DNA of 64,000 bases from Petrotoga mobilis SJ95 (GTDB lineage Bacteria; Thermotogota; Thermotogae; Petrotogales; Petrotogaceae), in NCBI RefSeq assembly GCF_000018605.1, contig NC_010003.1, positions 372,001 to 436,000 on the forward strand. The letters run 5' to 3'. The translations under genes and the position numbers were made by a program. The notes beneath the pieces are model-generated. The model was not told where the DNA came from and did no database searches. It worked only from the letters and a program-made list of their open reading frames with translations. Shown one piece after another: positions 25,388 to 41,304 of this stretch. Every line of letters starts with the position of its first letter. Position 1 is the first letter of the stretch.

Positions 25388-27367
25388 ATGAAAGGCATAT
25401 ATTCTGATCAAACTAGCTGTTATCTTTATCCCGAGGAGCCAAGCATAGATGACAAGGTAACGATTAAACTGAGAATTCCAAAATACTTAGGTAAAAGTAT
25501 CGGAAGTGTTATTTTTACTCCTCAAAAAAACTTAAAAAATTATCAACATAAACCAATGCAACTCTCAAAAGAAACTACTTATTTTTATTTTTTTGAAAGT
25601 ACTTTCAAAATGCCAGACAGAATTGTTAGGTACCATTTCGAAATAGATTTAATAGAAAAGGGCAAAAAAATGTTCTATGACGCTATGGGGATTGTAGAAA
25701 ATCGCACTATTCATGACTTTGTACTCGTTGCAGATTTTAAAACTCCAAAATGGTCCCATGGTTCAATATATTATCAAATATTTGTTGATCGATTTAAAAA
25801 CGGAGATGAAACAAACGATCCAGTATCTCACGAGTATCAATACGATGGTCAAGAAGTTTTGAAAAAAGATTGGAACTCACTGCCAGATCCTAAAAATGGT
25901 CATAGAGAGTTTTATGGCGGAGATTTACAAGGAGTTTTAGAAAAGATTGACTACTTAAAAGATTTAGGAGTGGAAACGATTTACCTAAACCCTATCTTTG
26001 TTTCTCCAAGTCCGCACAAATATGATACTCAAGATTACGAACATGTAGACCCTCATTTTGGGGTTATAGAGGAAGATTCTGAAGATCTTAACGAAAAATA
26101 CAAAGTCAGAACTACCTCTATAAAGAACCTCGAAAAAAGCGATGAAATTCTAAAAAGTCTTATTCAAAAAGCCCATGAAAAAGGTATAAAAGTTATTTTA
26201 GATGGCGTTTTCAACCATTGTGGCTCTTTTCATAAGTGGGTAGACGAAATGGATTTGTATGGTGAAGGTAGTCTACATAGGGATGATTCTCCCTACAAAA
26301 GTTATTTTTATTGGGACGGTACCCAAAAGAGCTATGAGGGATGGTGGGGTTTTCACACCCTACCAAAATTGAATTATGGAAATATTAGTTTATGGAAATA
26401 CATAGCTGATATTGGGAAAAAATGGGTAAGTGAACCTTTCAATGCGGATGGATGGAGACTCGATGTTGCGGATGATTTAGGTAAATCTTTTGAAATGAAC
26501 ACAGCTTTTTGGAGATTCTTCTACAAAGTTGTAAAAAAGTCAAATCCAGAATCGATAATATTTGCAGAAATTTATAAATCACCTCTTGCTTGGTTAGAAA
26601 GACAATGCTGGGACTCTATAATGAATTATATAACCTGTATGGATCCGGTTAGTTATTTTCTTACAGGCATGGAAAAACACAACGAGCATTATAAACCTGA
26701 GCTCTTAAAAAATGCTGAGTATTTCGTTAACTCAGTGAGATGGGCTTTATCTCAATTACCCATGAATAGTAAATTTATTGCTTTAAACCAACTAAGCAAC
26801 CATGATCATTCTAGATGGATGACAAGAACCACACAAAAAGTTGGGAGATTGGGACCAAAAACTCATGAAGAAGCTTCCCTTGGAAAGGATTTAGATGTTT
26901 TCAAAATAGGGTTAGTCACAATGTTTACTCTTCCAGGATCACCCGGATTATTCTACGGTGATGAAATAGGTTTAGAAGGTTGGACAGACCCAGATAATAG
27001 AAGACCTTACCCTTGGGGAAAAGAAAGTGAAGAAAATAAAATGTTGTTTAATTTCACAAAAGAATTAATTAAAATGTACAAAGAACATCTTGCATTGAGA
27101 AAGGGGTCTTTTGATTTTCTTGATTGGAATGGAGGATACGTATCTTACGCTTCATGGAATGAAAGTGAAAATATAATCACCGTTATAAATAGAGAAGAAA
27201 AAGAGATCGATGTTGAACTGCCATTATGGCTACTCGATAAAAAAGAAGGGAAAATAGATCTTTTATTCGCTACAAAAGATTTCAATTTAGAAGATAATTC
27301 TTATAACGACGGCAAAAAATCTCTAAAAATCCCAGAGAAAATTGCCCTTGTATTTAAAATTAATTGA
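25388..27367 (+). CDS. GH13 family glycosidase (cyclomaltodextrinase/neopullulanase-like)
   Basis: This alpha-glucan hydrolase has an N-terminal beta domain (about residues 1-120), as in maltogenic amylase and neopullulanase, and a (beta/alpha)8 barrel. The catalytic positions are intact: nucleophile Asp359 in GWRLDVADD, acid/base Glu394 in FAEIY and the transition-state Asp473 in SNHDH. DGVFNH is conserved region I. No signal peptide is present, so it probably degrades imported malto-oligosaccharides or cyclodextrins in the cytoplasm. It starts 2 nt after the ABC-F stop with a GGAGG SD. The exact substrate cannot be read from the sequence. Confidence 0.87.
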   Translation: MKGIYSDQTSCYLYPEEPSIDDKVTIKLRIPKYLGKSIGSVIFTPQKNLKNYQHKPMQLSKETTYFYFFESTFKMPDRIVRYHFEIDLIEKGKKMFYDAMGIVENRTIHDFVLVADFKTPKWSHGSIYYQIFVDRFKNGDETNDPVSHEYQYDGQEVLKKDWNSLPDPKNGHREFYGGDLQGVLEKIDYLKDLGVETIYLNPIFVSPSPHKYDTQDYEHVDPHFGVIEEDSEDLNEKYKVRTTSIKNLEKSDEILKSLIQKAHEKGIKVILDGVFNHCGSFHKWVDEMDLYGEGSLHRDDSPYKSYFYWDGTQKSYEGWWGFHTLPKLNYGNISLWKYIADIGKKWVSEPFNADGWRLDVADDLGKSFEMNTAFWRFFYKVVKKSNPESIIFAEIYKSPLAWLERQCWDSIMNYITCMDPVSYFLTGMEKHNEHYKPELLKNAEYFVNSVRWALSQLPMNSKFIALNQLSNHDHSRWMTRTTQKVGRLGPKTHEEASLGKDLDVFKIGLVTMFTLPGSPGLFYGDEIGLEGWTDPDNRRPYPWGKESEENKMLFNFTKELIKMYKEHLALRKGSFDFLDWNGGYVSYASWNESENIITVINREEKEIDVELPLWLLDKKEGKIDLLFATKDFNLEDNSYNDGKKSLKIPEKIALVFKIN

Positions 27368-27395
27368 TTCCCCTTGCTTGGATATATGGCTTTTT

Positions 27396-27878
27396 TTAAT
27401 GTTCTGTAATCTCACCCTTTAAAATATTAATTCCGTGTGGGATAAGATCTTTAACAGCTTCAAAACATTCTTTAACCGCTTTAGTGCTACCTGGAAAATT
27501 GATAATTAAAGTGAATTTTCTAATTCCACAAACTCCTCTAGAAAGATATGCCATTGGGGTATTCTCCCCCGTGGCATATCTGATTTTTTCTGGAATTCCT
27601 GGAACCTCTTTTTCGATAATGTTTTTCGTAGCCTCCGGAGTAACGTCTCTTGGAGCTAAACCCGTTCCCCCTGTTGTGAGTATTAAGTCTGCAATATTAT
27701 TGTCGGCTACTTCTTTTAATTTTTGTTCTATTTCTTCTTTTTCATCGGGAATTATTAGGTAAAAACTTTTAATCCAACCTTCTTCTTCAATCATCTTAAT
27801 TAGTAATTCACCACTTTTGTCTTGTCTTAAACCCTTTGATCCTTTATCACTTATTGTTATTATTGCAACTTTAATCAT
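27396..27878 (-). CDS. mog: Molybdopterin adenylyltransferase (MogA/MoaB family)
   Basis: This enzyme adenylylates molybdopterin before metal insertion by MoeA. The 160-residue protein contains the MPT-binding GGTGLAPRDVTPEAT motif and the family start VAIITISDKGSKG. It is the last gene of the ten-gene tungsten/molybdenum cofactor operon, 11 nt after the MOSC gene. It ends convergently with the glycosidase gene, and I see no clear terminator in the 28-nt gap. Confidence 0.93.
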   Translation of the reverse strand: MIKVAIITISDKGSKGLRQDKSGELLIKMIEEEGWIKSFYLIIPDEKEEIEQKLKEVADNNIADLILTTGGTGLAPRDVTPEATKNIIEKEVPGIPEKIRYATGENTPMAYLSRGVCGIRKFTLIINFPGSTKAVKECFEAVKDLIPHGINILKGEITEH

Positions 27879-27889
27879 TACTGTACCCC

Positions 27890-28324
27890 CTACTCTGATA
27901 CAATCGTTAATTTATCACCTGGAACCACGATACCACCTTCTAAAACTTTGGCGAAAATCCCCTCTGTCAGCATTATATTGTCAGGATTGAATTCTCCAGC
28001 TTTTCCTATTTCAGTAATTTCGAGTAATACACTCTCACCTACTCTAAATTTGGTTCCCACAGGATATTTATATAACTCTATCCCTTCTATGGTTATATTC
28101 TGTGCGAAGTTGCAATATCCATCTTTTAATTTTAAATTCCTTTCTTTTACTATTTTTTCAAGGCTTTCTATGCCCAACAAACTGACTTGTCTATGACTTT
28201 TTCCTGCATGATAGTCACCCTCTACACCAAAGTTAGTTATAATGTTTATCTTATCTTGGATTTTTTTGAGCATTCCTCTTTTTTCACATTTACAAACTTT
28301 GACTACTTTACCTTCTCTAATCAT
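27890..28324 (-). CDS. MOSC domain protein lacking the usual cysteines
   Basis: MOSC domains bind molybdenum cofactor and often carry sulfur on a conserved cysteine. The approximately 144-residue protein has the domain's [19 protein letters not shown] and [11 protein letters not shown] segments and ends [17 protein letters not shown]. Where small MOSC proteins usually have a GKxCHxxC segment, this one reads GKAGEFNP with no cysteine. The start is ATG 28324, which overlaps the moaC stop. The frame is open to 28348. It lies between moaC and mog, which supports a cofactor-related role, but what it transfers or binds is unclear. Confidence 0.82.
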
Positions 28325-28799
28325 CGTTTTCTCTAACATAAGTCCCACTTTTACCTCCCGTCTTTTTCATTAATTTTATATTTTTAATCACCATATCTTT
28401 ATCTACAGCCTTACACATATCGTATACCGTCAAAGCTGCTATTGAAACACCTGTAAATGCTTCCATTTCAACCCCCGTTTTACCTGTTGTTCTCACCGTT
28501 GCGTAGATACCTAAAGTTGTAGCATTTTCAAATTCAAATTTTATATCTATGCCGGTTATCAGCAAAGGGTGACACATTGGGATTAACTCAGATGTTTTCT
28601 TAACACCCATAATTCCAGCCACTCTTGCGGTTTCTAAAACAGCTCCTTTTTCTATCTGACCGTTCTTTATCTTTTCAAGGGTTGATTCTTTTAGCTTTAT
28701 TTGCCCATAGGCTATAGCTTCTCTTTTGGTTTCATCTTTATCTGTAACGTCAACCATCTTTGCTCTACCTTTTTCGTCTATATGAGTAAATTCTTTCAT
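28317..28799 (-). CDS. moaC: Cyclic pyranopterin monophosphate synthase
   Basis: MoaC converts the MoaA product to cyclic pyranopterin monophosphate, the first stable intermediate of the cofactor. The 160-residue sequence has the conserved [22 protein letters not shown] and [22 protein letters not shown] blocks. It follows moaA by 2 nt and overlaps the MOSC gene. Confidence 0.97.
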
Positions 28800-28801
28800 A
28801 C

Positions 28802-29773
28802 CTATCCTCCAATTTGAGACATATTTTTCTTCGGGAAAAAATCATTTTTGTAAAAGTTGTGACTAATGGGTTTAAGAAGAAGAGCTTTTTCAAACTTTTC
28901 TCTCACACCTTCTGAAGAGATCTTTCCATCTTCATCGCGCATATTTACTTCAACATCGCTGGCAAGACAAGGCCTCAAAAATCCATCAGCAGTTAATCTC
29001 ATTCGATTACATGTTGAGCAAAAGTTATGACTAATAGCGGTAATAAATCCTACAGTTCCCTTTGCCCCAGGGACTTTGAAATCCTTTGAGGGGCCATTAT
29101 TTTGTATATTTACAGGGACCATACCCATCTTATCGATAATTATTTCCTTGAATTCGTTTAGAGAAACATAATAATTACCAGAAAGAAGGCTTGTTTCACC
29201 CATAGGCATATACTCAATAAATCTCACATGTAGGTCCTTATCTATTGTGAGATTAACGAAATTTTCCAATTCATTATCGTTGATACCCTTCATCACAACG
29301 GTATTAATCTTTACTGGATTTAAGCCAACTTCAAGTGCTGCTTTAATCCCTTCAATTGCTTGAGAAAATTCGCCCCTTCGAGTAATCGTTTTATAGGTAT
29401 CGGGATTTAAAGAATCAAGACTAATGTTAACCCTAGACAAACCTGCCCTTTTTAAAGCAAATGCATATTTTGGTAGAAGAACGCCATTAGTTGTCATAGT
29501 AATATCTTCAAGTTCAGGAATTTTCCTCAATTCTTTGATTAAATTTACTACGCCTTGTCGAACAAGAGGTTCACCACCAGTGATACGAACTTTCTTTATA
29601 CCAAGTTCAGTACCTACTTCAACGATTTTGATTATTTCTTCATACCGTAGAATACTGCTATGGGTCTTGAAAGTCACACCTTGAGGTGGCATACAATAAA
29701 TACAACGTAGATTACATCTATCTGTTATCGATACTCTAAGATAATCGATACTTCTTCCGTATTTATCAATCAT
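28802..29773 (-). CDS. moaA: GTP 3',8-cyclase (radical SAM)
   Basis: MoaA is the radical SAM enzyme that starts molybdenum/tungsten cofactor synthesis from [11 protein letters not shown] gives the N-terminal 4Fe-4S cluster. FCSTCNR plus a cysteine 13-14 residues later (FLRPC) gives the C-terminal cluster. ITGGEP is present. The family's C-terminal double-glycine survives as the final residues (SQIGG). Its length of 323 is normal. It starts 18 nt after the MoeA-PBP fusion gene. Confidence 0.97.
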
Positions 29774-29791
29774 TATAATTGAACTCTCCTT

Positions 29792-31690
29792 TTATGACAT
29801 TATTTCACCTGTATTATCTGTTCTATAACCCCCCAATGCAATTACTTGGCTCTTAAACTTTTCAGAATTAATAACCTCAAGAATTTTTCCCATCCTGGTA
29901 TCTTGTAGAAAGTCAGTTGGAATTATAAAATCATATCTTTCTTCTAAAAGAGGTATAAAATCCAAATCCATCGCATCGGCAGCTGCCTTTATCCCTAATC
30001 CTACATCTGCAGATTTATTTGCAACGGCTGCTGCAACAGCAGTGTGGGTGAATTCTTCTCTCTCGTATCCTCTAATTGATTTTGAAGGTATCCCCTTTTT
30101 GTTCAACCAATAGTCTAGTAATACGCGGGTACCTGAACCTTTCTGTCTATTGATAAAGTTAATATCTGGACGGATTAAATCCTCTATCTTTCCTAATCCT
30201 AAAGGGTTGTCTTTTGGTACAATTAAACCCTGTTGTCTCCAAATTAAATTAACCATAGTTACTTTTTTATCACCTAAAATCTCTTCAACGTAAGTTTTAT
30301 TGTACGTTCCACTTTGTGGATCCAAAAGGTGGGCTCCAGCCAAATGACACTCGCCTCTTTTAAGCGACATCAATCCTCCCATACTCCCCACAGATTGAAT
30401 GTTAAAGTCAAATCCAAGTTTTTGAGATTTTATTTCGTTAACCAATATGTCTAATGAATAATCATGACTCCCAATGAATAACACGTTTTTTGAAATGGAG
30501 GAGATGGGGTTCAAAATATATATTTTCACCTTTTCGTTGATACCTATTCCTTCGGATTTTTCTGGGACAGGCATAATACCATCTGCATTCACCAGTGACT
30601 CCATGGCAGCCGAACCCCTTTTTCTTGGAACCGCTACGTATTCTCCATCAATAAAAGCTAAATTAACCCTTAAAAATTCTTCCAAGCCAACTTGTGAAGG
30701 AACTTTTCTACGAACAACCGCATTTATATATGGTGTTTCTGGAACGTCCAAACTTAACATCTGATACACAAGGGTTCGTACAAAAATATAATAATTCAGC
30801 AAAGCAGATAGAGGATAACCAGGTATACCAATTACCGGCTTTTCTTTTATAACACCAAGAATGACTGGTTTACCAGGCATTATGTTAATTCCATGTACAA
30901 CAACTCTTCCTACTTCATTTAAAATTTTCTCGGTATAATCTTCCCTACCGGCAGAAGAACCCGCTATAATGATCAAAATATCGTTTTTTTCGATCTCATC
31001 CAGCACTTTTTTCTTGAGATCTTCATATTTGTCGGGAAGGATCTCGGTAATTGAAACTTTTGCTCCCCATTGTTCGCCATAAATTTTCATCATAGTCGAA
31101 TTGAAATCCACAAGTTGACCTTTTTCTGGATCCTGATCGGGAGGAATAATCTCATCACCCGTTGGAATGATTCCTATCAAAGGCTTTTTTTTAACGTTGA
31201 TTTCTTTCACACCTGCTTCTAATAAAGATCCTACATCATAAGGCCTTATCATGTGATTTACTGGGAACATTAATTGCCCTTTCATTACACTTTCTCCAAT
31301 AGCTCTAATATTTTGCCATGGTGTAGCACTTTTTTCTATAATGTAAAAATCACCTTCATCATTTATTTCTTCTATCTTTATAACCGCATTAAATCCTTCT
31401 GGTATCGGATCCCCAGTATCAACTATAACCGCATCTAAACCTTTTTTCAACATCAATGGATTTGTTTTACTGGCTCCATATGTATTTGAAGCTTTAACCG
31501 CTATACCATCCATTGCGGATGCATAATAGTGTGGCCCAAACCTTTTTGCATAGATAGCTTCTGCTGTAACTCTACCGTTAGAATTCTCAACTTTAATATT
31601 TTCTGTTTCAACAGAATAGTCTTTGAAAATCTTTAAATATTCTTCTTTAGCTTTTTCTAAAGAGACTTTTTCTAAATATATTTTACTCAT
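29792..31690 (-). CDS. MoeA-like protein fused to a PBP-type substrate-binding domain
   Basis: Residues about 1-395 form a complete MoeA (molybdopterin molybdenumtransferase) with the IGIIPTGDE, GGSSxG-like AGSSAGREDYT and GKPVILGVI blocks. Residues about 400-632 are a periplasmic-binding-protein-like domain (NVLFIGSHDYSLDILVNEI onward, ending TGEIMS), known from two-domain MoeA proteins of clostridia and archaea. No signal peptide exists, so the binding domain is cytoplasmic and may bind molybdate, tungstate or a cofactor precursor. It is the second of two moeA-type genes in the operon. One may serve Mo and the other W, which is inference. Confidence 0.88.
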   Translation of the reverse strand: MSKIYLEKVSLEKAKEEYLKIFKDYSVETENIKVENSNGRVTAEAIYAKRFGPHYYASAMDGIAVKASNTYGASKTNPLMLKKGLDAVIVDTGDPIPEGFNAVIKIEEINDEGDFYIIEKSATPWQNIRAIGESVMKGQLMFPVNHMIRPYDVGSLLEAGVKEINVKKKPLIGIIPTGDEIIPPDQDPEKGQLVDFNSTMMKIYGEQWGAKVSITEILPDKYEDLKKKVLDEIEKNDILIIIAGSSAGREDYTEKILNEVGRVVVHGINIMPGKPVILGVIKEKPVIGIPGYPLSALLNYYIFVRTLVYQMLSLDVPETPYINAVVRRKVPSQVGLEEFLRVNLAFIDGEYVAVPRKRGSAAMESLVNADGIMPVPEKSEGIGINEKVKIYILNPISSISKNVLFIGSHDYSLDILVNEIKSQKLGFDFNIQSVGSMGGLMSLKRGECHLAGAHLLDPQSGTYNKTYVEEILGDKKVTMVNLIWRQQGLIVPKDNPLGLGKIEDLIRPDINFINRQKGSGTRVLLDYWLNKKGIPSKSIRGYEREEFTHTAVAAAVANKSADVGLGIKAAADAMDLDFIPLLEERYDFIIPTDFLQDTRMGKILEVINSEKFKSQVIALGGYRTDNTGEIMS

Positions 31691-31811
31691 TTATTCACCT
31701 TCTTGAATTCAATTTACCACCTTGAAAAGCTCTTATATAGCGCCCCTTCGCCCCGCTCCCCACCCATAAGGATAAAGGAATTTTAACCCATTTGACCCGA
31801 AGCCCACTCAT
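31691..31811 (-). other. GC-rich spacer between the two moeA-type genes
   Basis: This 121-nt gap is the only large one inside the cofactor operon. It contains an unusually G/C-rich stretch for this genome (minus strand about 31780-31738, including GGGTGGGGAGCGGGGCGAAG). I see no promoter, terminator or gene. It may be a dispersed repeat remnant. Confidence 0.4.
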
Positions 31812-33047
31812 TTAGTACAAGTAGACATCTACAGTTTCCTCTTTATTGAGTCCTTCTTTGTTAGCTTCTATTATTATATAACCATCGGCATAAACAAATG
31901 TAGATATCATTGCTGATTCACCGACTAATGGCTCCGCAATGTAATTTCTTTCAGCACTTTCAATCAATCGAACTGGGACATATTCTTCTCTCCCTTTATC
32001 TGAATCTAGGTTTCTACTTAATTTTGCTTTAATATTACATTTTATTCTTTTTTCTTTTATACCCATTATCTTCTCTACCAATGGTTTAACAATCACCTGG
32101 GTAATGATAAACGACGATGAAGGGTGGCCAGGTAAGCCTAAAATAGGTTTACCTTCAACCATTGCAAAAATCGTAGGTTTACCAGGCTTTATCGTAATTC
32201 CTTGAGACAATACACCAGGTTCCCCTAATGAATTTAAAACTTCCACCGTCATGTCTTTGACTCCTACAGAACTACCCCCAGAGATCAGGATCAAGTCACA
32301 ATCTAAATTGTTTTTTATACTCTCCCTTAGAAAATCAAATTTATCTGGAATTATCCCAACGTATCTAATTTCTGCACCTACTTCTTCTAATGTTGTTCCT
32401 ATTGTGTAACTATTTATATCCCTGATTTCACCTACTCCAAGAACATTTTCCGGGGAAACTAATTCATCTCCTGTTGCAATTACAGCAACTTTTGGTTTTT
32501 TATAAACTTCAACATCAATTATTCCAAGGCCTGCTAGAGCTCCCACATCCTGTGGCCTGATCTTATGGTATTTATTTAAAATTACCTTCCTTTTAGGAAT
32601 ATCTTCACCCTTATAAATTACGTTTTCACCAACTCCAACAGAACGATTGATTTCAATCATTTTTTCGCCAACGTAATCAACGTATTCTATCATAACGACT
32701 GCATTTGATCCTTCTGGCAACATTCCACCCGTCGGAATTTTTACAGCTTCACCAGCTTCTACCATTATCTTTGTTTCTTGCCCCATGAACACTTCACCTT
32801 TAACGTTCAAATAGATAGGCATACTTTCCGAGGCACCAAAAGTATCCTCCGCTTTCACAGCGAAACCATCAACAGTTGATCGACTAAAAGGTGGAAGATC
32901 GATGGGAGAAAATAAATCCTGGGCTAAAATTCTCCCATTGGACTCTTTAAAGTTTATCGTTTCTGATGGCAATAAACCAATATTTATATTTTTATTCACA
33001 ATTTCCCAAAACATTTCTGAAGTATTTAAATCCAAGAATTCAGACAT
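31812..33047 (-). CDS. moeA: Molybdopterin molybdenumtransferase MoeA
   Basis: MoeA inserts Mo or W into adenylylated molybdopterin. The 411-residue protein has the full single-domain set: PPFSRSTVDGFAV, IPTGGMLPEGSNAVVMIE, VAVIATGDELV, LISGGSSVGVKDMT and GLPGHPSSSF, with the C-terminal domain IV. It lies between mobB (15 nt upstream) and the MoeA-PBP gene in the riboswitch-controlled operon. Confidence 0.95.
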   Translation of the reverse strand: MSEFLDLNTSEMFWEIVNKNINIGLLPSETINFKESNGRILAQDLFSPIDLPPFSRSTVDGFAVKAEDTFGASESMPIYLNVKGEVFMGQETKIMVEAGEAVKIPTGGMLPEGSNAVVMIEYVDYVGEKMIEINRSVGVGENVIYKGEDIPKRKVILNKYHKIRPQDVGALAGLGIIDVEVYKKPKVAVIATGDELVSPENVLGVGEIRDINSYTIGTTLEEVGAEIRYVGIIPDKFDFLRESIKNNLDCDLILISGGSSVGVKDMTVEVLNSLGEPGVLSQGITIKPGKPTIFAMVEGKPILGLPGHPSSSFIITQVIVKPLVEKIMGIKEKRIKCNIKAKLSRNLDSDKGREEYVPVRLIESAERNYIAEPLVGESAMISTFVYADGYIIIEANKEGLNKEETVDVYLY

Positions 33048-33062
33048 ACTTAGCCTCCGTCT

Positions 33063-33674
33063 TTATTTGAATAAACCAAGCTGGCAGTACCGAACTTTGA
33101 TGTTTTGATCATCCAACAATTTCCCAAATTTAGGTAATTTGATATTCAATGCCTTACAGATAGCGTGTGCATTAAAACAACTCACTTGTTCAAAATTAAT
33201 CTTGAATTTCATACTGTTTCCGTCTTTGATTAATTCTTCAAGGTTTTCTTTATCGATTATAATATCGGCTTTACTTTTGGCTTTAGTCGCCGATTCTTTT
33301 TTTTGTGTATCATCAGAATCAATGTAAATAACCAAAGTTGGTCTAATAAAATCTAGGATACTGTTCCCTTCAACGATCAAATATTCTATGTCCTCATCTA
33401 AGAGCTTGCGTGCCCTTCTATAACCTTCCAACAATCCTTCATAATTTGTTTTTAGTAAGATTACATTTTGGGCTCCAGATTCTTTAAAAAACGCCGTATC
33501 TTTCCCTTTCTCACTAATAATTGAAGGATCAGCTGTAACTTCTATTTCCTTATTAGTTTTATGGATAGATGTTTTTATCACTCCAACGTGACAGTTTAAA
33601 TTCTTTATCATTTGTGAAATTAAAGTAGATTTACCGACATTGCTCGATTTTCCACCAACAACGATGGTAACCAA
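33063..33674 (-). CDS. mobB: MobB-like GTPase
   Basis: MobB proteins bind GTP and assist attachment of the guanine nucleotide to the cofactor. The P-loop GGKSSNVGKST lies at residues 7-17, followed by GVIKTSIHK. The 203 residues include a C-terminal part ending in a second unknown segment, longer than in E. coli. The start is TTG 33674 behind GGGAG. The gene sits between wtpC and moeA. It is a less certain assignment than its neighbours because small P-loop NTPases resemble each other. Confidence 0.75.
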   Translation of the reverse strand: MVTIVVGGKSSNVGKSTLISQMIKNLNCHVGVIKTSIHKTNKEIEVTADPSIISEKGKDTAFFKESGAQNVILLKTNYEGLLEGYRRARKLLDEDIEYLIVEGNSILDFIRPTLVIYIDSDDTQKKESATKAKSKADIIIDKENLEELIKDGNSMKFKINFEQVSCFNAHAICKALNIKLPKFGKLLDDQNIKVRYCQLGLFK

Positions 33675-33691
33675 AAAAAATCACTCCCATC

Positions 33692-34735
33692 TTAGTAAAC
33701 ATGCACTGCAGAAGCTTTGAATGTAACAAAAATCTTTTTATTTTCTACTAAATTCAACTCTTTCAACGATTGCCTAGTTATGTACACCACCAAAGGAATA
33801 CCGATATCTACAGTAATATGAACTACTGATAATTGTTCATCAATCCGCTTTATCACTCCAGGGAAAACATTCCTAGCACTTGAATCAAAAGGATTTGTAG
33901 ATAACAATATATCTTCTGGTCTGACAGAGATATTAACGTTCCCCATCTTTTCAGAGGCTACACTTATTTTCAATCCATTCACAGAAACATAGGTGCCAGA
34001 ATCATCTTTTATTATTTCTCCTCGAAAAATATTTCTAACCCCTGTGAATCGAGCTACAAAATCAGAATTCGGTTTGTTGAACACATCTTTTGAATCTCCA
34101 TCTTGAATGATCTTCCCGTCTTTCATTATAGCGATTTTATCCGCTAAAGAAAATGCTTCATTAAAATCATGTGTTACATGAATTGTAGTAGTCTTGAGCT
34201 GTTTATGTAAGTTCTTCAAATCTTCTATAAATTTTTCTTTTGTTTGAGGATCTAATGCACTTAAAGGTTCATCTAACAGCAAAATTTGTGGAGAAGTGAT
34301 TAAAGCTCGTGCAAGAGCTACTCTTTGCTTCTCTCCTCCACTTAGATTCTTCGTTTTCCTTGTGAGTAAATGTTCTATGCGAAAAAGCTCTACTATGTTG
34401 TTTAACAGAGATCTTATTTCATCTTTTTTAATTCTCCTCGATTTTAATCCAAAAACAATATTCTCTTCCACATTTAGATGTGGAAAGAGCATATAATCCT
34501 GATAAACCATTCCAACATTTCTCTCTTCAGGAGGTAAATGTGTAATTCTTTTCTCTCCGATAAAAACATCACCAAAGTCAGGTTTTATTAAACCTGCTAT
34601 AATCTCAAGAATCACTGTTTTACCTACACCTGTTGGCCCCAAAATTACAAAATACTCGTTATCTTCGATATTCAAATTGATATCTTCTAAAGAAAACTTT
34701 TTAAATCTCTTCGATATATTCACGATTTTAATCAA
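33692..34735 (-). CDS. wtpC: Tungstate/molybdate ABC importer, ATPase subunit
   Basis: This is the ATP-hydrolysing subunit of the oxyanion importer. Walker A is GPTGVGKT (about residues 32-39), the signature is LSGGEKQRVALARAL and the Walker B context is ILLLDEPLSALD. The C-terminal part from about residue 235 (SVRPEDILL onward) is a TOBE-like oxyanion-binding domain typical of ModC/WtpC. The TTG start overlaps the wtpB stop. The partner WtpA supports tungstate or molybdate as substrate over sulfate. Confidence 0.88.
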   Translation of the reverse strand: MIKIVNISKRFKKFSLEDINLNIEDNEYFVILGPTGVGKTVILEIIAGLIKPDFGDVFIGEKRITHLPPEERNVGMVYQDYMLFPHLNVEENIVFGLKSRRIKKDEIRSLLNNIVELFRIEHLLTRKTKNLSGGEKQRVALARALITSPQILLLDEPLSALDPQTKEKFIEDLKNLHKQLKTTTIHVTHDFNEAFSLADKIAIMKDGKIIQDGDSKDVFNKPNSDFVARFTGVRNIFRGEIIKDDSGTYVSVNGLKISVASEKMGNVNISVRPEDILLSTNPFDSSARNVFPGVIKRIDEQLSVVHITVDIGIPLVVYITRQSLKELNLVENKKIFVTFKASAVHVY

Positions 34736-35537
34736 GCTCGTTTTCCTTCTCTCTACCTTCTATTGAATTCTTTCTGTTTATGAGTGTTAAAAAGATAAAC
34801 ACAATGAGACTTGTTATCACCATAATGGCTGCAACGGGGCTTGAATACTTCAATCCAAATGAAGTAAATCTCTCGTAGATAAGTACCGACGCCGTCATTG
34901 GATGATAAGCTAATATAATAACCGCACCAAATTCAGATAATCCTCTTGCCCACATCATAAGTGAACCAGAGATTAAATGGTTAAAATTCAAAGGTAGCGA
35001 TACTCTGAAGAAAGTTCTCGCAGGGGATGAGCCCAAACTTCTAGCAACCTTTTCAAGTTTAACATCAATAGATCTGAACCCTTCTTTAACTTCATTCACC
35101 AAAAAAGGCATACTGACAAACATCATCGCAACAACTATTCCTGCAAATTCGCCAACGAACTCTATTCCAAATATCGAGAAAAATCTTCCCAGAAAAAATC
35201 TACTACCAAAAACCGTTAAAAGCGCTATTCCTGCTGCTGTATGTGGTATTATAACGGGGATATCTATCAAACTTTCTACAAAAGACTTACCAAAAAAATC
35301 TTTACGAGCAAGCAAGTAAGCCAAAGGTACCCCCAACAATATAGAAATTAAAGTTGCAACTAACGATGCACTGAAAGTAAGCAATATGGAACTGTATACT
35401 TCTTCTTCCTTTACAGTGTCGATAAGAACTTTCGGCTCAACTCCAAAAATAAGCTTAGCCACAGGGGCCGCTATGAAAAACAACAATAGTATCCCCAAAA
35501 AACTAAGTATTAATTCGAACCATGCTTTTTTAATCAT
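34728..35537 (-). CDS. wtpB: Tungstate/molybdate ABC importer, permease subunit
   Basis: This inner-membrane permease has about six hydrophobic segments and the EAA-type loop (VARSLGSSPARTFFRVSLPL) that contacts the ATPase. A GTG at 35546 is in frame, but GGTGGAG and the ATGA overlap with the wtpA stop make ATG 35537 the better start, giving 269 residues. It is translationally coupled on both sides, to wtpA and wtpC. Confidence 0.9.
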   Translation of the reverse strand: MIKKAWFELILSFLGILLLFFIAAPVAKLIFGVEPKVLIDTVKEEEVYSSILLTFSASLVATLISILLGVPLAYLLARKDFFGKSFVESLIDIPVIIPHTAAGIALLTVFGSRFFLGRFFSIFGIEFVGEFAGIVVAMMFVSMPFLVNEVKEGFRSIDVKLEKVARSLGSSPARTFFRVSLPLNFNHLISGSLMMWARGLSEFGAVIILAYHPMTASVLIYERFTSFGLKYSSPVAAIMVITSLIVFIFLTLINRKNSIEGREKENELD

Positions 35538-36495
35538 TCGCTCCACCTTTTAAGAAATCTTGAAGCTCCTGGGGAGCTTTTTCTATGTTTACACCTTCTG
35601 GGGGATTAATTGACGGTTGCCCGTTTTCTTCCATAATGGCTCGGCCTTGTGGACCAATGACGAATTTGATGAAGGCAATTGCTCCCTGTAGATTTGGAGC
35701 ATTATTGGGAATGGTTAGAGCATATACCATAGGTTGCCCTATTTGGGTTATCATTTCACCAGGCTCTTTGCCCGTTACATCAAAAGAAGCAGTTGCATAA
35801 AAATCGGCATACTTTGTACTTTTCAAATTAATTTGTTCTGGTAATTCTACATAGGGCATTCGATGTTGCAATGCCACAGATTTGTAGATGAAAATATAAT
35901 CCAGTTCTCCTGCCTCTAATAGTGCGATTAAATCTGTTTCTTTTGGTCTAACGTTTTTTGGTGGACAGTTATCAGCAAGTTTTTTATATAGACTATCCAC
36001 TTTATAATATTTTTCTGCCAATTTCCAAACAATCTGGCTTCTGTATCCACAAGGATCAGCATTTGGATCCGAATGACCGTACTCAACATCAGGACGCAAA
36101 AGAATCTCATACCAATTGTCAGAATTAATCTCATCTTTGTAACGAGAATCTTCTGTGTACATTATCACCATCTCGTTGTTGGCAAAATTTATGTACCATT
36201 CTGTGTACTCTGGGATCATCAGATTTTCGATGACCGTATAATCCGCAGAACCTATAACGTCCGCTTCTCTTCCAAGATCGGTAACCTTTCTAACAGCTTC
36301 TCTACTTCCTGCAGCTTCCCTAATAACATCTGTTCCAGGATACTGACTTTCAAAGGCTTTTTCAATTTGTGCAAATGGAACGCTTAAAGATCCCGCATGG
36401 AAAACTACAATCTCTCCAGTTATATCTTCAGCCATCATCAACGTCCCAAATAAAAAAACAAATAACATAAATGTGTACTTATAAATGCTCTTCAT
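35530..36495 (-). CDS. wtpA: Tungstate/molybdate-binding protein WtpA
   Basis: This periplasmic binding protein captures the oxyanion for WtpBC. It has a signal peptide (hydrophobic residues about 8-21, cleavage near MAEDITG). The WtpA-type sequence follows: VVFHAGSLSVPF, REAAGSREAVRKV, ADVIGSADYTVIE and GHSDPNADPCGYRSQ. The HSDPNxDPCGYR region favours the WtpA family over ModA. It is first in the ten-gene operon, 145 nt after the Moco-type riboswitch terminator, with the SD GGGGAGAGG. Confidence 0.93.
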   Translation of the reverse strand: MKSIYKYTFMLFVFLFGTLMMAEDITGEIVVFHAGSLSVPFAQIEKAFESQYPGTDVIREAAGSREAVRKVTDLGREADVIGSADYTVIENLMIPEYTEWYINFANNEMVIMYTEDSRYKDEINSDNWYEILLRPDVEYGHSDPNADPCGYRSQIVWKLAEKYYKVDSLYKKLADNCPPKNVRPKETDLIALLEAGELDYIFIYKSVALQHRMPYVELPEQINLKSTKYADFYATASFDVTGKEPGEMITQIGQPMVYALTIPNNAPNLQGAIAFIKFVIGPQGRAIMEENGQPSINPPEGVNIEKAPQELQDFLKGGAND

Positions 36496-36571
36496 TATTT
36501 CCTCTCCCCTTATCTAAATTTTTTTATCTAAGTTTATAAACTCTAAAACTTACTTTAGCAACCCTTTACTG

Positions 36572-36667
36572 TTACATCAACCTAGAAGATTGAGGAAAGG
36601 AGAGCAGCTTAAAAAAATTAATGACATTACAAAATAAAAAAACCGGCGTGTGAAGACACCGGTTCAT
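36572..36667 (-). CDS. Possible leader peptide overlapping the riboswitch terminator
   Basis: A 31-codon frame starts at ATG 36667, 7 nt after GGAAAGGAG, immediately downstream of the aptamer. Its first ten codons run through the terminator hairpin and T-run. The predicted peptide starts MNRCLHTPVFLFC and is hydrophobic and Cys-containing. Ribosomes on this frame would unfold the terminator. Chance occurrence in AT-rich DNA cannot be excluded, so this is a hypothesis. Confidence 0.35.
   Translation of the reverse strand: MNRCLHTPVFLFCNVINFFKLLSFPQSSRLM
36641..36664 (-). terminator. Intrinsic terminator (expression platform) before wtpA
   Basis: On the minus strand, AACCGGTGT pairs with ACGCCGGTT around a CTTCAC loop and is followed by TTTTTTT. 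It lies about 20 nt after the aptamer. GAGACAC just upstream can pair with GTGTCTT in the hairpin, giving an antiterminator alternative. Confidence 0.82.
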
Positions 36668-36679
36668 AATGTGTCTCCT

Positions 36680-36770
36680 TTCCTAATGCGGGAGGCATAG
36701 AAGTTTCCTTCTATACCCTATCGTCTAAGTCACCATAGAATGAATTCCGTAGGTAACCTAGATCGAAGAC
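36680..36770 (-). ncRNA. Moco-family (molybdenum/tungsten cofactor) riboswitch aptamer
   Basis: The minus-strand RNA has an 11-bp helix (TCTAGGTTACC with GGTGACTTAGA) extended by TCG/CGA. A second helix follows, GGTATAGAAG-GAAA-CTTCTATGCC, running into CTCCCGC. The GGAAAC...GCCTCCC segment, the position before the tungstate importer and cofactor operon, and the terminator downstream match the Moco RNA class. These RNAs sense the reduced Mo or W pterin cofactor and usually switch synthesis genes off. The sequence alone does not tell whether it prefers the Mo or the W form. A TATAAT at 36776-36771 gives a start near 36764. Confidence 0.77.
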
Positions 36771-36823
36771 ATTATAAAATGTATATGAAAAAAATTGTTT
36801 TCAAAAGAACTTAAATTTTAAAG

Positions 36824-38056
36824 TTATATATTCACAACTTCTCTCGTAGGAGCCTTAAACATCGAATAACTTAACGCACCTTTTATTGCTTCATTCAATA
36901 GATGGCTTATATCCCATTGATTTTTCATCGCTGCCAAATAAACTCCAGGATTTAGGACTCCTCCAACAAAGATAAAACCAACAAGTTTGCCATCTCTTAC
37001 CAGAATTTTGTGGTAACTTCTACCTTCTTTTTCCTTATAAACATCGTAAGCATCTTCTTTACTAATACCCCCAGTGAAAACAACTTCTCCAAATAAATTT
37101 ACTATGTTTCTAGATACTTCTTTGGGATATTTCCAAGAATACCCCGCCATATTGGTGGCAGCTATCCTTGCTTGTTCCATCGCAACAGGCCACAAGGCAT
37201 GCATTTCATACTCATCTGAAATTAAGTCTATGGATTCCGTCACATCCCCTGCCGCATAAACATCCTTAACAGATGTTTCCATATATTCGTTTACCAAGAT
37301 GCCAGTGTCACATTTGATAGGCGTTTTTTCGAGAAAATCTATACTCGGCTTAACTCCTTTTCCCACAACAACACAACTGCCTTGAATTACTTTGCCTGAT
37401 GCAAGAAAGATGTTTGCGTGATCTCCTTCTTCTTGAACCTTCGTTATGCTTTCACCTGTGATTAACTCCATTCCATTTTCTATTGCCCTTTCAGCAATAA
37501 TTTCTGAACCCTCTTCATCAACAATCTGAGATAACATTCTACGCGATCTTATAACAAAAGTAGCAGGTATATTAAGTTCTGCTAAGGCATCAGCGATCTC
37601 AGAATTAACTAATCCAGCACCAGAAAGTATAACTCTTTTAACGTCACTTTTGTTCAACTTATCTTTCAATTTATCCATATCTGAAAGATTTCTCACCGTT
37701 AACACTAGTGGAGATCCTTCTACTTCCATATCTGGAACATAAGGTTCCGCTCCAGTTGCTATCAACAATTTATCGAAGGAAAATGTTTTGTTTTGTATAG
37801 TTTCTATCTTTTTTCTTTCAACATCAATGTTGACAACCCTTTGCCCCAATAGAAGATTAGCTCTCGACGGAGAGGGTAGAAACATATAATCTCTCTTTTT
37901 CAATTTATTTGACAATAAGTAAGGTAGAGACATTTTACTGTAGGGGAATACTTCTTCGGCGGATAATATAGTTATTTCCCCTTGAGGATCCAGAGATTCT
38001 AATGTTCGAGCAGCATTTAAGCCAGCTGCACTAGCTCCAACAATAACGTATCTCAT
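36824..38056 (-). CDS. FAD/NAD-binding subunit of the aldehyde oxidoreductase complex (AorC-like)
   Basis: This is a pyridine nucleotide-disulfide-type flavoprotein of 410 residues. It has a FAD-binding GASAAGLNAA (residues 7-16), an NAD-binding motif in GAGLVNSEIADALAEL (about 147-162) and a second FAD contact in DVYAAGDVTE. It overlaps the AOR gene by 4 nt and closes the aor operon. In the Aromatoleum AorABC enzyme the third subunit is the same kind of FAD protein and lets the tungsten enzyme use NAD. The same role is inferred here. Confidence 0.82.
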   Translation of the reverse strand: MRYVIVGASAAGLNAARTLESLDPQGEITILSAEEVFPYSKMSLPYLLSNKLKKRDYMFLPSPSRANLLLGQRVVNIDVERKKIETIQNKTFSFDKLLIATGAEPYVPDMEVEGSPLVLTVRNLSDMDKLKDKLNKSDVKRVILSGAGLVNSEIADALAELNIPATFVIRSRRMLSQIVDEEGSEIIAERAIENGMELITGESITKVQEEGDHANIFLASGKVIQGSCVVVGKGVKPSIDFLEKTPIKCDTGILVNEYMETSVKDVYAAGDVTESIDLISDEYEMHALWPVAMEQARIAATNMAGYSWKYPKEVSRNIVNLFGEVVFTGGISKEDAYDVYKEKEGRSYHKILVRDGKLVGFIFVGGVLNPGVYLAAMKNQWDISHLLNEAIKGALSYSMFKAPTREVVNI

Positions 38057-39867
38057 TTTGAAATCTGGACCTCCAATTCTTTAAGTTTTTCTTCTGTGGG
38101 AACACTGTCTTTATCCCATCCTCTTAACTGATAGTATTCATCCAGCATCTTTTCAAGATCTTCTACCTGTCCTTTCGAAGGACCCGTTTTGATTGGTTCA
38201 TTTAATATTCTTGGAGGTAAGGTATCATCCTGTCTTGTAAAACCAGCTTTAAGATTGAAAAGCTTTTCAATATTCCAAATTCTTTCTCCAATTTTCATGA
38301 ACTCTTGGGCATCTATTGAAAAACCTGTTGCAGTTGACACCATCTCGGCTAACTCATTAGCACTGAGACCAAAAGTCGTGAACAAACATATTCCAGAAGA
38401 ATCAAGTGCACCGGTTAAATCTTGTAAGGTTTTAATTATAGCCGCTTTGCCTTCATAAGCGTACTGATCAGCATCTCCCAATACCTCTACGGCTGTTCCA
38501 TATCCTCTGACGTGGCAAGCACCACGATTGCTAGTTGCATATTCTAAACCCATACCTTTGATAGCCCTTGGATCGTAAGCTGGGAACTCCTGTTTCTTTG
38601 CCGACATAGAAAGTTCCGGATGACCATAATGCTCTGCTAAGCGATAGGAACCTTGAGCTAATAATTTCCCAAAATTTCCTTCTTGCTTGCACGCCAATTC
38701 CACGGCTTTTAACATAGCTTCTGCTGAACCAAATCTAAGTTCAAAAGGGGCATCTTCCTTGGGCATATATCCTTTTTCGTACAATTCCATGGCACAGGCG
38801 ACCGTTGAACCCATAGCGATAGTATCGATTCCATATTTATCACAAAGATGATTTGCACTTATCACTGCATCAAGGTCTGAAACACCACACATTGCACCAA
38901 ACGACCAAACTGATTCGTATTCTGGACCTCCTCCAATAGTTCCTTTATACGGTCCACTTTTTACTACCGTTACCCTACCACAAGCTATTGGACACTCAGC
39001 ACATCCTTCATTTCTAATTAAATTTTTCTCCCTTAGAGTTTCTCCACTAATTTTATTTGCCTCTGGGAAATAAGCATCTTGGGCATTACGAGTGGGGAAC
39101 CCACCAACACCATTGATAACATTCACCAACATTGCGGTACCTAACATAGCAGCCCCTTGACCTGCAAAGGCATCTTTGCTTAAAATATCTCTAGCCTTAT
39201 AAACTGCTTTCATAAAAGCTTCAGGATCAGCCACTGGAGTATCTTCATTCCCTCTAACGGCTATCCCTTTTAGGTTCTTGCTTCCAACTGCGGCGCCAAC
39301 ACCGGTTCTTCCAGAAGCCCTATGACCATTGAACATTACGCTAGAGATAGGAGATAATTTCTCGCCAGCCGGTCCAATCGTCATGGTTTCAGCCAAGGGA
39401 TGTGTTTGCTCTCTTATCAATTCGTCACTTTCGTCAGCCAATTTCCCCCATATTTCCTTTGCGGATCTGAATTCTACTTTACCTTTGTTAATCCATATAT
39501 ATACGGGTTCGGCTGATTTTCCTTCAACAACGATCATATCGTATCCTGTGTGTTTCAAAGCGGGGCCAAAATGTCCACCTGCATTAGAGCACGCAATAGC
39601 TCCATTCAAAGGACCTTTTGTGATTACCATAGTTCTTCCAGAAGAAGGAGCTAATGTTCCATCTAAAGGACCAGTGGCAAAAATGACCTTGTTTTCTTCA
39701 GAGAGAGGATCTACTTTCGGATCGATTTCTTCCAACAACAAACGAGTCCCATACCCTCTGCCCCCTAAATATTTCTGAGCCCACTCTTCATTCAATGGTT
39801 CACTTTTTACTTCTTTGGTTGTTAAGTTAACTCTCAATAATTTACCTTTGAATCCACCTTTTATCAT
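38053..39867 (-). CDS. Tungsten-containing aldehyde:ferredoxin oxidoreductase family subunit (AorB-like)
   Basis: This enzyme interconverts aldehydes and carboxylic acids at a W-bis-pterin site with one 4Fe-4S cluster. The 604-residue protein has the family N-terminus (GFKGKLLRVNLTTKEV, KYLGGRGYG), the AOR domain and the cluster ligands CAECPIAC plus a later Cys in LDSSGICLF. The pterin-binding region YDPRAIKGMGLEYATSNRGACH is intact. The length is typical. It follows the ferredoxin-like gene by 1 nt. The substrate range cannot be read from the sequence. Amino-acid-derived or fatty aldehydes are plausible. Confidence 0.93.
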   Translation of the reverse strand: MIKGGFKGKLLRVNLTTKEVKSEPLNEEWAQKYLGGRGYGTRLLLEEIDPKVDPLSEENKVIFATGPLDGTLAPSSGRTMVITKGPLNGAIACSNAGGHFGPALKHTGYDMIVVEGKSAEPVYIWINKGKVEFRSAKEIWGKLADESDELIREQTHPLAETMTIGPAGEKLSPISSVMFNGHRASGRTGVGAAVGSKNLKGIAVRGNEDTPVADPEAFMKAVYKARDILSKDAFAGQGAAMLGTAMLVNVINGVGGFPTRNAQDAYFPEANKISGETLREKNLIRNEGCAECPIACGRVTVVKSGPYKGTIGGGPEYESVWSFGAMCGVSDLDAVISANHLCDKYGIDTIAMGSTVACAMELYEKGYMPKEDAPFELRFGSAEAMLKAVELACKQEGNFGKLLAQGSYRLAEHYGHPELSMSAKKQEFPAYDPRAIKGMGLEYATSNRGACHVRGYGTAVEVLGDADQYAYEGKAAIIKTLQDLTGALDSSGICLFTTFGLSANELAEMVSTATGFSIDAQEFMKIGERIWNIEKLFNLKAGFTRQDDTLPPRILNEPIKTGPSKGQVEDLEKMLDEYYQLRGWDKDSVPTEEKLKELEVQISK

Positions 39868-39868
39868 T

Positions 39869-40357
39869 TTAAGCTCCCCCCTTTACTAAATCTTTTGCGA
39901 TTTCTTTAAGGCGGGTGGCAGTTTCCCTTACTTTCACATTTGTGATATCTTCTACTTCTTCGTAAGACAAAGCTCCTGGATAGCACACTTTAATACACGC
40001 TGGATCCCCACCACAGTTATCACATTTTATTACCTCTTTCCCTGTGTGATCCAATTTTATGGAACCCCACGGGCATGCTACGATGCACTGTTTACATCCG
40101 ATACATTTTTCCTTGTTAAGTTCTACCACCCCTGTTTCAGGGTTCTTAGTCAGAGCGGAAGTAGGGCATACTTCTTCACAATATGCTCTCTCACACTGCA
40201 GACAAACACTTGGGACGAAGGTTAAATCTTCCCAAAACTCGTTCACTTTGATTCGAGAGTCAAGGGGATTAAACTTTCCCGTATGCTCAAAAGAACAAGC
40301 ATACTCACATGCCCTACATCCCGTGCATTTTGCCTGATCCAACATCAATACTTTCAT
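39869..40357 (-). CDS. Four-cluster ferredoxin-like subunit (AorA-like)
   Basis: The 162-residue protein has sixteen cysteines in four 4Fe-4S patterns: CTGCRACEYAC, CLQCERAYCEEVC, CIGCKQCIVAC and CDNCGGDPACIKVC. This is the HycB/DmsB-type electron-transfer fold. It carries electrons between the tungsten subunit and the flavin subunit or ferredoxin. ATG 40357 lies 5 nt after AAGGAGGAG. An in-frame start at 40375 has no SD. It is first in the aor operon. Confidence 0.88.
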   Translation of the reverse strand: MKVLMLDQAKCTGCRACEYACSFEHTGKFNPLDSRIKVNEFWEDLTFVPSVCLQCERAYCEEVCPTSALTKNPETGVVELNKEKCIGCKQCIVACPWGSIKLDHTGKEVIKCDNCGGDPACIKVCYPGALSYEEVEDITNVKVRETATRLKEIAKDLVKGGA

Positions 40358-40386
40358 GCACACTCCTCCTTTCAATATTTTAAAAT

Positions 40387-40407
40387 GTTAACTGAACTAC
40401 AGTTAAC
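40387..40407 (-). promoter_or_regulatory. Inverted repeat in the aor leader
   Basis: GTTAACTG-N5-CAGTTAAC is a perfect 8-bp inverted repeat between the promoter and the aorA-like SD (about +56 to +76). It could be an operator, or an mRNA hairpin. It is not a good terminator for the aor direction. Confidence 0.5.
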
Positions 40408-40469
40408 TAAAAAAAAAGAAAACTTTGTTACATTCAAACTCCTATTTTTGAAAAATTTATATTGTTGTT

Positions 40470-40498
40470 ATTTTAACTCTTATGTAAAAAAAAGTCAA
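40470..40498 (-). promoter_or_regulatory. Promoter of the aor operon
   Basis: TTGACT (40498-40493) and TAAAAT (40475-40470) are separated by exactly 17 nt on the minus strand. It is placed 113 nt before the first gene and just downstream of two direct repeats. Confidence 0.8.
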
Positions 40499-40504
40499 TT
40501 TGAT

Positions 40505-40551
40505 TTATTGGCAATTAGAAGCGTTTAGGGACGATTATTTTCAATTAGAAG
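40505..40551 (-). repeat. Two direct repeats upstream of the aor promoter
   Basis: On the plus strand TTATTGGCAATTAGAAG (40505-40521) and TTATTTTCAATTAGAAG (40535-40551) match at 15 of 17 positions and are spaced 30 bp start to start, about three helical turns. They lie about 50 and 80 bp upstream of the presumed transcription start, next to the -35. This is the geometry of tandem activator sites. Confidence 0.6.
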
Positions 40552-40631
40552 GCAAATTCTTGCAAATAAGCGCTTTTCTTAATCTTATCTTGAAAAACAA
40601 GGATTAATAGAGGAATGAAAGTTCTTATTTT

Positions 40632-41303
40632 TCATTGAAGGTTAATTATTTCAAGGGAATAATCTTTTAAATCTATGAGTAGTAACTTGTTGTCGAGGGT
40701 ATCTTTTCTTCCAATTATTACTTTAATTGTTTCTATTACTTGAAGGGATGCCATAATCGATACTACAGGTGAGATAACAGAGACCTTTTCTTGTGTTGTA
40801 TCAATTTCTCCGAATATATCTTTTAAAGACGAAGTTTTACCTGGGATTATGGTTGTCAATTGACCATACCATTGATTAACGCCTGCATGAATATAAGGTA
40901 CGTTGGATTCCCAAGCAAGTTGTTCAAGAATATATCTCGTTTCGAAATTATCAAGAGCGTCTAATATGACGTTCACATCTTTGGGTATTTTACTCTCTTT
41001 TGAAATTTTTTCTACCTTTGTTTCTATTTTCGTAGGCAAGTTAAAAGATTCAAGAATTTTTTTAGCTTGATCAACTTTGTATTCACCAATGCTATCCACG
41101 CCATATAAAACTTGACGGTTTAGGTTAGAAGGTTCAACCTTATCATAATCCACCAAATATATTTTTTTTACACCAACCCTTTGTAACTCCAAAGCCTGAT
41201 GAGTTCCAAGACCTCCAGCACCACCAATATAAACAACAGCTTGTTTTAACTTTAAAGACTCCTCTTTTGAGAACAACCCTTTTTGTCTTTCCAAGTAATC
41301 CAT
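40632..41303 (-). CDS. ThiF/MoeB-type E1-like adenylyltransferase
   Basis: Such enzymes adenylylate the C-terminal Gly-Gly of a MoaD or ThiS partner. The protein has the ATP-binding GGAGGLGTHQALEL (residues 27-40), the Asp in LVDYDKVEPSNLNRQVL and KVDQAK. At 223 residues it is short and lacks the CxxC zinc pairs usually present in MoeB: the equivalent segment reads PGKTSSLKDIFG. It directly follows a MoaD-like gene, so they are probably partners in cofactor sulfur transfer. The gene's SD is formed by the MoaD Gly codons. Confidence 0.85.
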   Translation of the reverse strand: MDYLERQKGLFSKEESLKLKQAVVYIGGAGGLGTHQALELQRVGVKKIYLVDYDKVEPSNLNRQVLYGVDSIGEYKVDQAKKILESFNLPTKIETKVEKISKESKIPKDVNVILDALDNFETRYILEQLAWESNVPYIHAGVNQWYGQLTTIIPGKTSSLKDIFGEIDTTQEKVSVISPVVSIMASLQVIETIKVIIGRKDTLDNKLLLIDLKDYSLEIINLQ

Positions 41304-41304
41304 A

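Follow-up and report, generated by a model that had tools for sequence, protein, structure and literature searches.

A P3-less molybdenum cofactor riboswitch, candidate sensor of the tungsten cofactor, ahead of a ten-gene tungstate import and cofactor synthesis operon in Petrotoga mobilis

In the accessible part of Regulski et al. 2008 (PMC2408646), to which all our statements about that paper are limited, stem P3 is missing in 58 of 176 RNAs of the molybdenum cofactor (Moco) class, 17 of the 19 organisms with P3-less RNAs have genes that point to tungsten-cofactor metabolism, and the P3-less RNAs are proposed to be sensors of the tungsten cofactor (Tuco or WCo). The Moco element of E. coli is described there as acting on translation and as unresponsive to tungstate, the types with and without P3 are said not to be strictly sorted by phylogeny, and direct binding data were lacking in 2008, the cofactor being unstable (PMC2408646). 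The class is given as MoCo/WCo in the accessible parts of two reviews; the tungsten-cofactor type has been listed since 2008 by association, because the instability of its ligand defeats the usual binding assays. Moco RNAs are further described near a molybdate transporter in Caldithrix (PMC5317091) and in acetogens, there with start sites mapped, the accessible parts of the latter reports describing no metal test of the RNA (PMC5651825, PMC6239172), and PMC7653027 was rejected as a precedent because, in its accessible part, it concerns an engineered 2-aminopurine riboswitch. Petrotoga is not named in the accessible part of PMC3766115, and the titles and abstract openings covered by our literature search, which lay mostly outside subscription journals, held no test of a P3-less RNA and no account of the locus considered here. 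This locus lies in a 64,000-nucleotide stretch of the Petrotoga mobilis SJ95 genome (the window; NC_010003.1, positions 372,001 to 436,000) and consists of one Moco RNA followed by ten genes for tungstate import and cofactor synthesis. We assign a probability of roughly 0.5 to the reading of this RNA as a P3-less Moco riboswitch of the proposed Tuco/WCo type, which turns the operon OFF by terminating transcription and most likely responds to the tungsten cofactor. All features of the window described below are on the minus strand.

The initial annotation, made from the sequence alone, had recognised a Moco-family riboswitch with a terminator and had named a covariance-model search at 36680-36770 as the check. 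In that search Rfam model RF01055 matched 36780-36659 (-) at 87.5 bits (cmscan; gathering score 36, E 5.7e-20) over its whole length (positions 1-135 of 135), which confirms the family. The match is the single copy in the 2,169,548-base single-contig genome and, as is characteristic of RF01055 members, lies upstream of molybdopterin and Mo/W transport genes; the leader folds more stably than 200 of 200 shuffles (z -5.8). The terminator was likewise found, directly after the aptamer at 36665-36640, as a 10-bp stem followed by a T run, and among 11 terminator-like sites in 27200-40700 it ranks first in strength (shuffles yield 7.7 +/- 3.0 such sites). The aptamer (36659-36780) has no stem P3, a telling trait that the initial annotation had passed over: its P2-P4 junction, CGATA (36719-36723), measures 5 nt, compared to 15-29 nt in RNAs with P3, and the place of P3 is a gap in the alignment. 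The RNA thus shares with the P3-bearing E. coli moaA-type Moco RNA the conserved core, stems P1, P2, P4 and P5 and the covariance model, but differs from it in lacking P3, in its termination platform, the E. coli element being described as acting on translation, and in having a tungsten transporter downstream. With the P3-less Tuco/WCo RNAs it shares the absence of P3 and the link to molybdopterin synthesis and tungsten genes, whereas the list of groups in the abstract of PMC2408646 is without Thermotogota, and import and synthesis are here combined in one ten-gene operon with an explicit antiterminator that mimics P1.

The arrangement of the leader suggests how the switch could operate. The 3' strand of P1, GGAGACAC (36678-36671), pairs either, over 7 nt, with the P1 5' strand core UGUCUUC (36771-36765) or, over 8 bp, with GUGUCUUC (36659-36652), a copy of the P1 5' strand that lies in the 5' arm and loop of the terminator and would be the 3' strand of the antiterminator. 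By sequence and energy model the terminator is predicted to be mutually exclusive with the structure that breaks P1: for a transcript ending after the mimic the antiterminator is favoured (-46.9 versus -44.9 with P1 forced) and at full length P1 plus the terminator (-54.7 versus -49.3 for the antiterminator), the gaps amounting to only a few kcal/mol at 37 C. Since the P1 3' strand can pair with the terminator arm, the leader is best read as switching expression OFF through termination of transcription. A plentiful metal-pterin cofactor, most likely in its tungsten form, would bind the aptamer and hold P1 closed, which would leave the terminator arm free, so that the terminator could form and the ten-gene operon be switched off; when the cofactor is scarce, GGAGACAC would pair with GUGUCUUC and block the terminator, and tungstate import and cofactor synthesis would be expressed. 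The OFF direction, which is inferred, would suit a feedback on import and synthesis. The P1-mimic layout is kept in 4/4 leaders of the genus and in the Halanaerobiales metagenome-assembled genome (MAG) L065, which has its own mimic and T-run hairpin and for which the energy value of P1 plus terminator is void. As a general platform of the family the P1-mimic antiterminator is ruled out, for a crude test finds it at p <= 0.05 in 13 of 95 terminator-bearing RNAs; the terminator of L033 is apparently interrupted.

Ten open reading frames follow the terminator from 36495 to 27396, separated by at most 18 bases except that the two moeA genes are 121 bases apart, which bears out the ten-gene set of import and synthesis genes in the initial annotation. 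The first three encode a transporter of the WtpABC type: wtpA (35530-36495), whose product exceeds the cut-offs of two models for the tungstate-binding protein (NF003196, 404 bits versus 355; TIGR03730, 356 versus 243) and remains below that of the ModA model TIGR01256 (32 bits versus 62.5), the permease gene wtpB (34728-35546; NF040839, 308 bits, below the cut-off of 340) and wtpC (33692-34735; NF040840, 469 versus 440), encoding an ATPase with a TOBE domain. A preference of this transporter for tungstate is a prediction from its sequence class. The remaining genes are mobB-like (33063-33674; PF03205, a weak match of 27.4 versus 26.6), moeA (31812-33047; MoeA_N, MoCF_biosynth and MoeA_C), a moeA fused to a PBP_like domain (29792-31690; PRK14498, 703 versus 534), moaA (28802-29773; TIGR02666, 367 versus 284), moaC (28317-28799; TIGR00581, 219 versus 141.5), a MOSC domain gene (27890-28348; PF03473, also weak at 24.7 versus 22.7) and a mog/moaB-type gene for a molybdopterin-binding protein (27396-27878; PF00994). 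One RNA therefore stands ahead of both import and synthesis genes, as had been claimed, and these genes are probably co-transcribed. WtpA is nearest to the solved archaeal molybdate/tungstate-binding proteins MA_0280, MJ1186, PH0151, AF_0094 and PF0080; the version here differs from the archaeal WtpABC in being bacterial and in standing behind a riboswitch.

We re-assessed the relation between P3 and the genes behind the RNA with 155 aptamers, comprising 120 loci from Bacillota, 15 from Thermotogota and 20 from the Desulfoscipio genome G054. Of 398 genomes sampled from Bacillota, the phylum of a Desulfoscipio genome, 212 carried RF01055, and the 120 loci were drawn among the best-scoring matches listed, hits at contig edges, tandem partners and the lower-scoring tail being left out; genes were followed for up to 5 kb downstream, less at contig ends, and for 1.5 kb in Thermotogota. 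The state of P3 was called by script in 141 aptamers and by eye in 14, with L334 and L335 left out of the scoring. Among the 141 resolved by script the junction length has two peaks, at 2-7 or 15-29 nt with none between, and in total 65 RNAs carry P3 and 90 lack it. WtpA, TupA or AOR occurred in the operon behind 0/65 RNAs with P3 versus 23/90 without (p 1e-6), and in the Bacillota sample alone behind 0/64 versus 13/56 (p 2e-5), although these p-values overstate independence owing to the shared ancestry of relatives; counted by genome in the Bacillota sample, such operons were present in 12 of 42 genomes with P3-less RNAs versus 0 of 47 with P3-bearing ones. The C-terminal part of formate dehydrogenase (FDH) was encoded behind 8/90 P3-less and 0/65 P3-bearing RNAs, whereas ModA (24/65 versus 6/90) and MobA (10/65 versus 0/90) were more frequent behind RNAs with P3. 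Both RNA types were seen together in only 5 of the 84 genomes sampled from Bacillota.

The binding proteins behind these RNAs were matched to NCBIfam at E <= 1e-10. Behind RNAs with P3 all 24 matched ModA, 4 and 1 of them also matching two WtpA models weakly; in a mixed set of 13 behind P3-less RNAs, 10 and 8 matched the two WtpA models and 6 matched ModA, and in the other P3-less set 11/11 matched TupA. Because these counts overlap, local profiles were used to place each protein, which gave 24 ModA behind RNAs with P3, and 7 WtpA, 6 ModA and 12 TupA, including the uncounted L307, behind RNAs without it; members of these very sets went into the local profiles for ModA and TupA, and the assignment is thus a separation only, with no outside test. 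Of the SBP-cluster ORFs, the NCBIfam matching left out L293 and L307 (P3-less, odd lengths) and L268 (P3-bearing, on the other strand), and with the local profiles L307 is a TupA and the other two match none. L175 and L202 (P3-bearing) and L215 and L282 (P3-less) were counted for their binding protein even though they fail the operon-chaining rule.

Some further genes recur in this sample. A DUF364 protein, a candidate importer, is encoded behind 7/65 RNAs with P3 versus 1/90 without, and in the same group of loci (L204, L208, L190 and L201) SsuA-like proteins after P3-bearing RNAs and FecCD/BtuC-type permeases after both types are possible importers. In L180 and its cluster mates an Oxidored_molyb domain is combined with Fn3-type repeats in secreted proteins, which occur behind both RNA types. 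The Desulfoscipio geothermicus MAGs G054 and G055 (the genomes of L046 and L047) contain 24 and 31 RF01055 matches at E <= 0.001, one scan behind these counts having taken in 50 of the 80 wtpA loci described below; all 20 RNAs of G054 that were examined (L292-L311) are P3-less, and they precede WtpA-, ModA- and TupA-type transporters, FDH, MoeA and secreted Oxidored_molyb proteins.

An independent set of 80 wtpA loci with named records, gathered by protein similarity, was scanned with a covariance model built in this analysis. It revealed 27 RNAs at 21 of the loci, all upstream and on the strand of wtpA, and P3 was missing in every one of the 27, two of which are weak (L048, 32.8 bits; L049, 26.5 bits). 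The same model detects the RNA at 43/43 held-out loci with P3, the P3-less L235 being set aside from a list of 44, and P3-bearing RNAs at wtpA loci are therefore hardly likely to have been overlooked. The records concerned are titled Chloroflexi, Aminicenantes, Halanaerobiales, Desulfoscipio and Thermotoga, among others. At 59 of the 80 loci the RNA was not found, a result of little weight as many of these are short contigs. In the Halanaerobiales MAG L065 the same ten genes stand in the same order behind a P3-less RNA, at 40-72% identity. Tandem pairs of P3-less Moco RNAs precede wtpA at L052, L056, L068, L075 and L094, which bear Chloroflexi-type titles.

Upstream of the RNA, on the same strand and not behind it, domain matches identify a gene for an AOR with AFOR_N and AFOR_C domains (38053-39867), adjoined by genes for an FAD NAD(P)H reductase (36824-38056) and a 4Fe-4S protein (39869-40375), an order of Fe-S protein, AOR and FAD reductase which we take to resemble AorABC of Aromatoleum. 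Further upstream are moeB/thiF-like, moaD-like and mobA genes (40632-42173) and a gene for an FDH-type protein with a NuoG-like N terminus and PF00384 (42136-44889). The genome has one AFOR_C and one PF00384 match, and in profile searches neither ModA over its cut-off nor TupA was found in it; its tungsten-related genes include those for WtpA and AOR, and also FDH, in keeping with the P3-less subgroup. In the genus the RNA, WtpA, AOR and FDH co-occur in the same 4 of 6 members, and ModA over the cut-off and TupA were each found in 0/6 by profile search. In the sister species G002 a decayed remnant of the block lies between intact flanks (L330, G002:C8:71300-78800) and consists of mog, the MOSC gene, a shortened moaC and the moeB-like and moaD-like genes, the RNA, wtpABC, moeA, moaA, AOR and FDH being gone from this place; in G003 the left flank joins the right flank directly and the block is absent there. 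The initial annotation had also held that the pterin enzymes present are a tungsten AOR and an FDH. Both genes are indeed there, yet as sole pterin enzymes they are ruled out by two matches to PF02738, the xanthine-dehydrogenase-type molybdopterin-binding domain, at genome positions 1897388 and 1906015 (the RNA is at 408659). These genes belong to a purine-type cluster (L336, G000:C1:1890000-1909999) with dihydropyrimidinase- and carbamoyltransferase-like genes and an XdhC-type maturation factor, a stretch that is 89-92% identical in G002 (L337), and PF02738 matches twice in 6/6 genus members, including G002 and G003 without the operon.

These observations bear on which metal the RNA would respond to. 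Its candidacy as a sensor of the tungsten form, proposed in the initial annotation, is supported by the absence of P3, by the 0/65 P3-bearing RNAs followed by WtpA, TupA or AOR and by the fact that two members of the genus lack RNA, AOR and FDH together; specificity for tungsten is in this way argued for by association only. In its strictest form, in which P3-less Moco RNAs including that of the window would be true tungsten-cofactor sensors, P3 would mark the molybdenum version and the operon would be an import and synthesis set for AOR and FDH with the xanthine-dehydrogenase-type enzymes out of its reach, we consider the idea tentative and give it somewhat less than an even chance. Several points weigh against a tungsten-specific switch. 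Xanthine-dehydrogenase-type enzymes normally hold molybdenum, and the two genes for them leave room for molybdenum use, lower the odds of a tungsten sensor and raise those of the rival in which the RNA is metal-blind; the genome is thus not free of typical molybdenum enzymes, and the molybdenum cofactor for these enzymes may come from the same operon. E. coli YdhV is a molybdenum-holding member of the AOR family, and membership of that family does not prove the use of tungsten. To these points are added the small energy gaps, the rarity of the P1-mimic elsewhere, the shared ancestry behind the p-values and six exceptional P3-less RNAs that precede ModA, comparable to the Pelobacter case in PMC2408646, where freedom from molybdenum enzymes is not demanded and where the E. 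coli RNA with P3 deleted is reported to have lost control, with no switch of its specificity. A metal-blind RNA would sense the metal-pterin cofactor as such, the operon would also serve the xanthine-dehydrogenase-type enzymes, and the loss of P3 would be a structural or lineage variant whose gene association follows the metal use of each lineage. We regard this as a substantial possibility, if one that probably does not apply: it accommodates the two xanthine-dehydrogenase-type genes, the finding of WtpA alone in searches for ModA, WtpA and TupA, ModA behind 6/90 P3-less RNAs, the 5/84 genomes with both RNA types and the unchanged specificity of the E. coli deletion, but is at odds with the 0/65, with the lack of P3 in 27/27 RNAs at wtpA loci under varied record titles and with the statement in PMC2408646 that the types are not strictly sorted by phylogeny. 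G002 and G003 keep the xanthine-dehydrogenase-type genes without the operon, so that these genes do not travel with it; in an alternative reading the enzymes would not depend on it, which would fit an operon dedicated to AOR and FDH.

That P3 stands for the pterin form (plain molybdopterin versus dinucleotide) and not for the metal appears improbable: MobA, which makes the guanine dinucleotide form, is indeed confined to RNAs with P3 (10/65 versus 0/90), but FDH belongs to a dinucleotide-cofactor enzyme family and its C-terminal part is encoded only behind P3-less RNAs (8/90 versus 0/65). The RNA could also serve as an attenuator within a longer transcript begun upstream of the AOR or FDH genes, which is a question of the promoter and is compatible with a tungsten-responsive OFF switch. 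The end of the FAD reductase gene lies 44 bases before the aptamer and neither a consensus promoter nor a terminator was found in this gap, but the promoter scan was restricted to sigma-70-type sites and the gap is AT-rich, and we hold a longer transcript to be unlikely. The idea of a tungsten sensor was already published in 2008, and to this the locus adds a platform that is better defined and comparative support beyond that of the table of that year, which the larger tally turns into a quantitative pattern over several phyla with a clear prediction. The locus combines a single RNA, a single detected Mo/W binding protein and a plain read-out by termination with sister species that lack the block, in an organism where the xanthine-dehydrogenase-type enzymes may require tungsten and molybdenum use to be told apart. 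If tungsten-cofactor sensing by the P3-less form is true, one RNA scaffold would discriminate two nearly identical metals in the same pterin.

Relatives outside the genus also carry P3-less RNAs. In another genus of the family (L004, L005, L008 and L009) the P3-less RNA is located directly before an AOR gene and not before a wtp operon, and the WtpA proteins of that genus are only 37-41% identical to that of the window. A sister family (L011-L014) has a P3-less RNA too, and at L012, and likely at L011 and L014, the next gene encodes a secreted SBP_bac_8-type protein of ~480 amino acids, which is not evidently a Mo/W protein.

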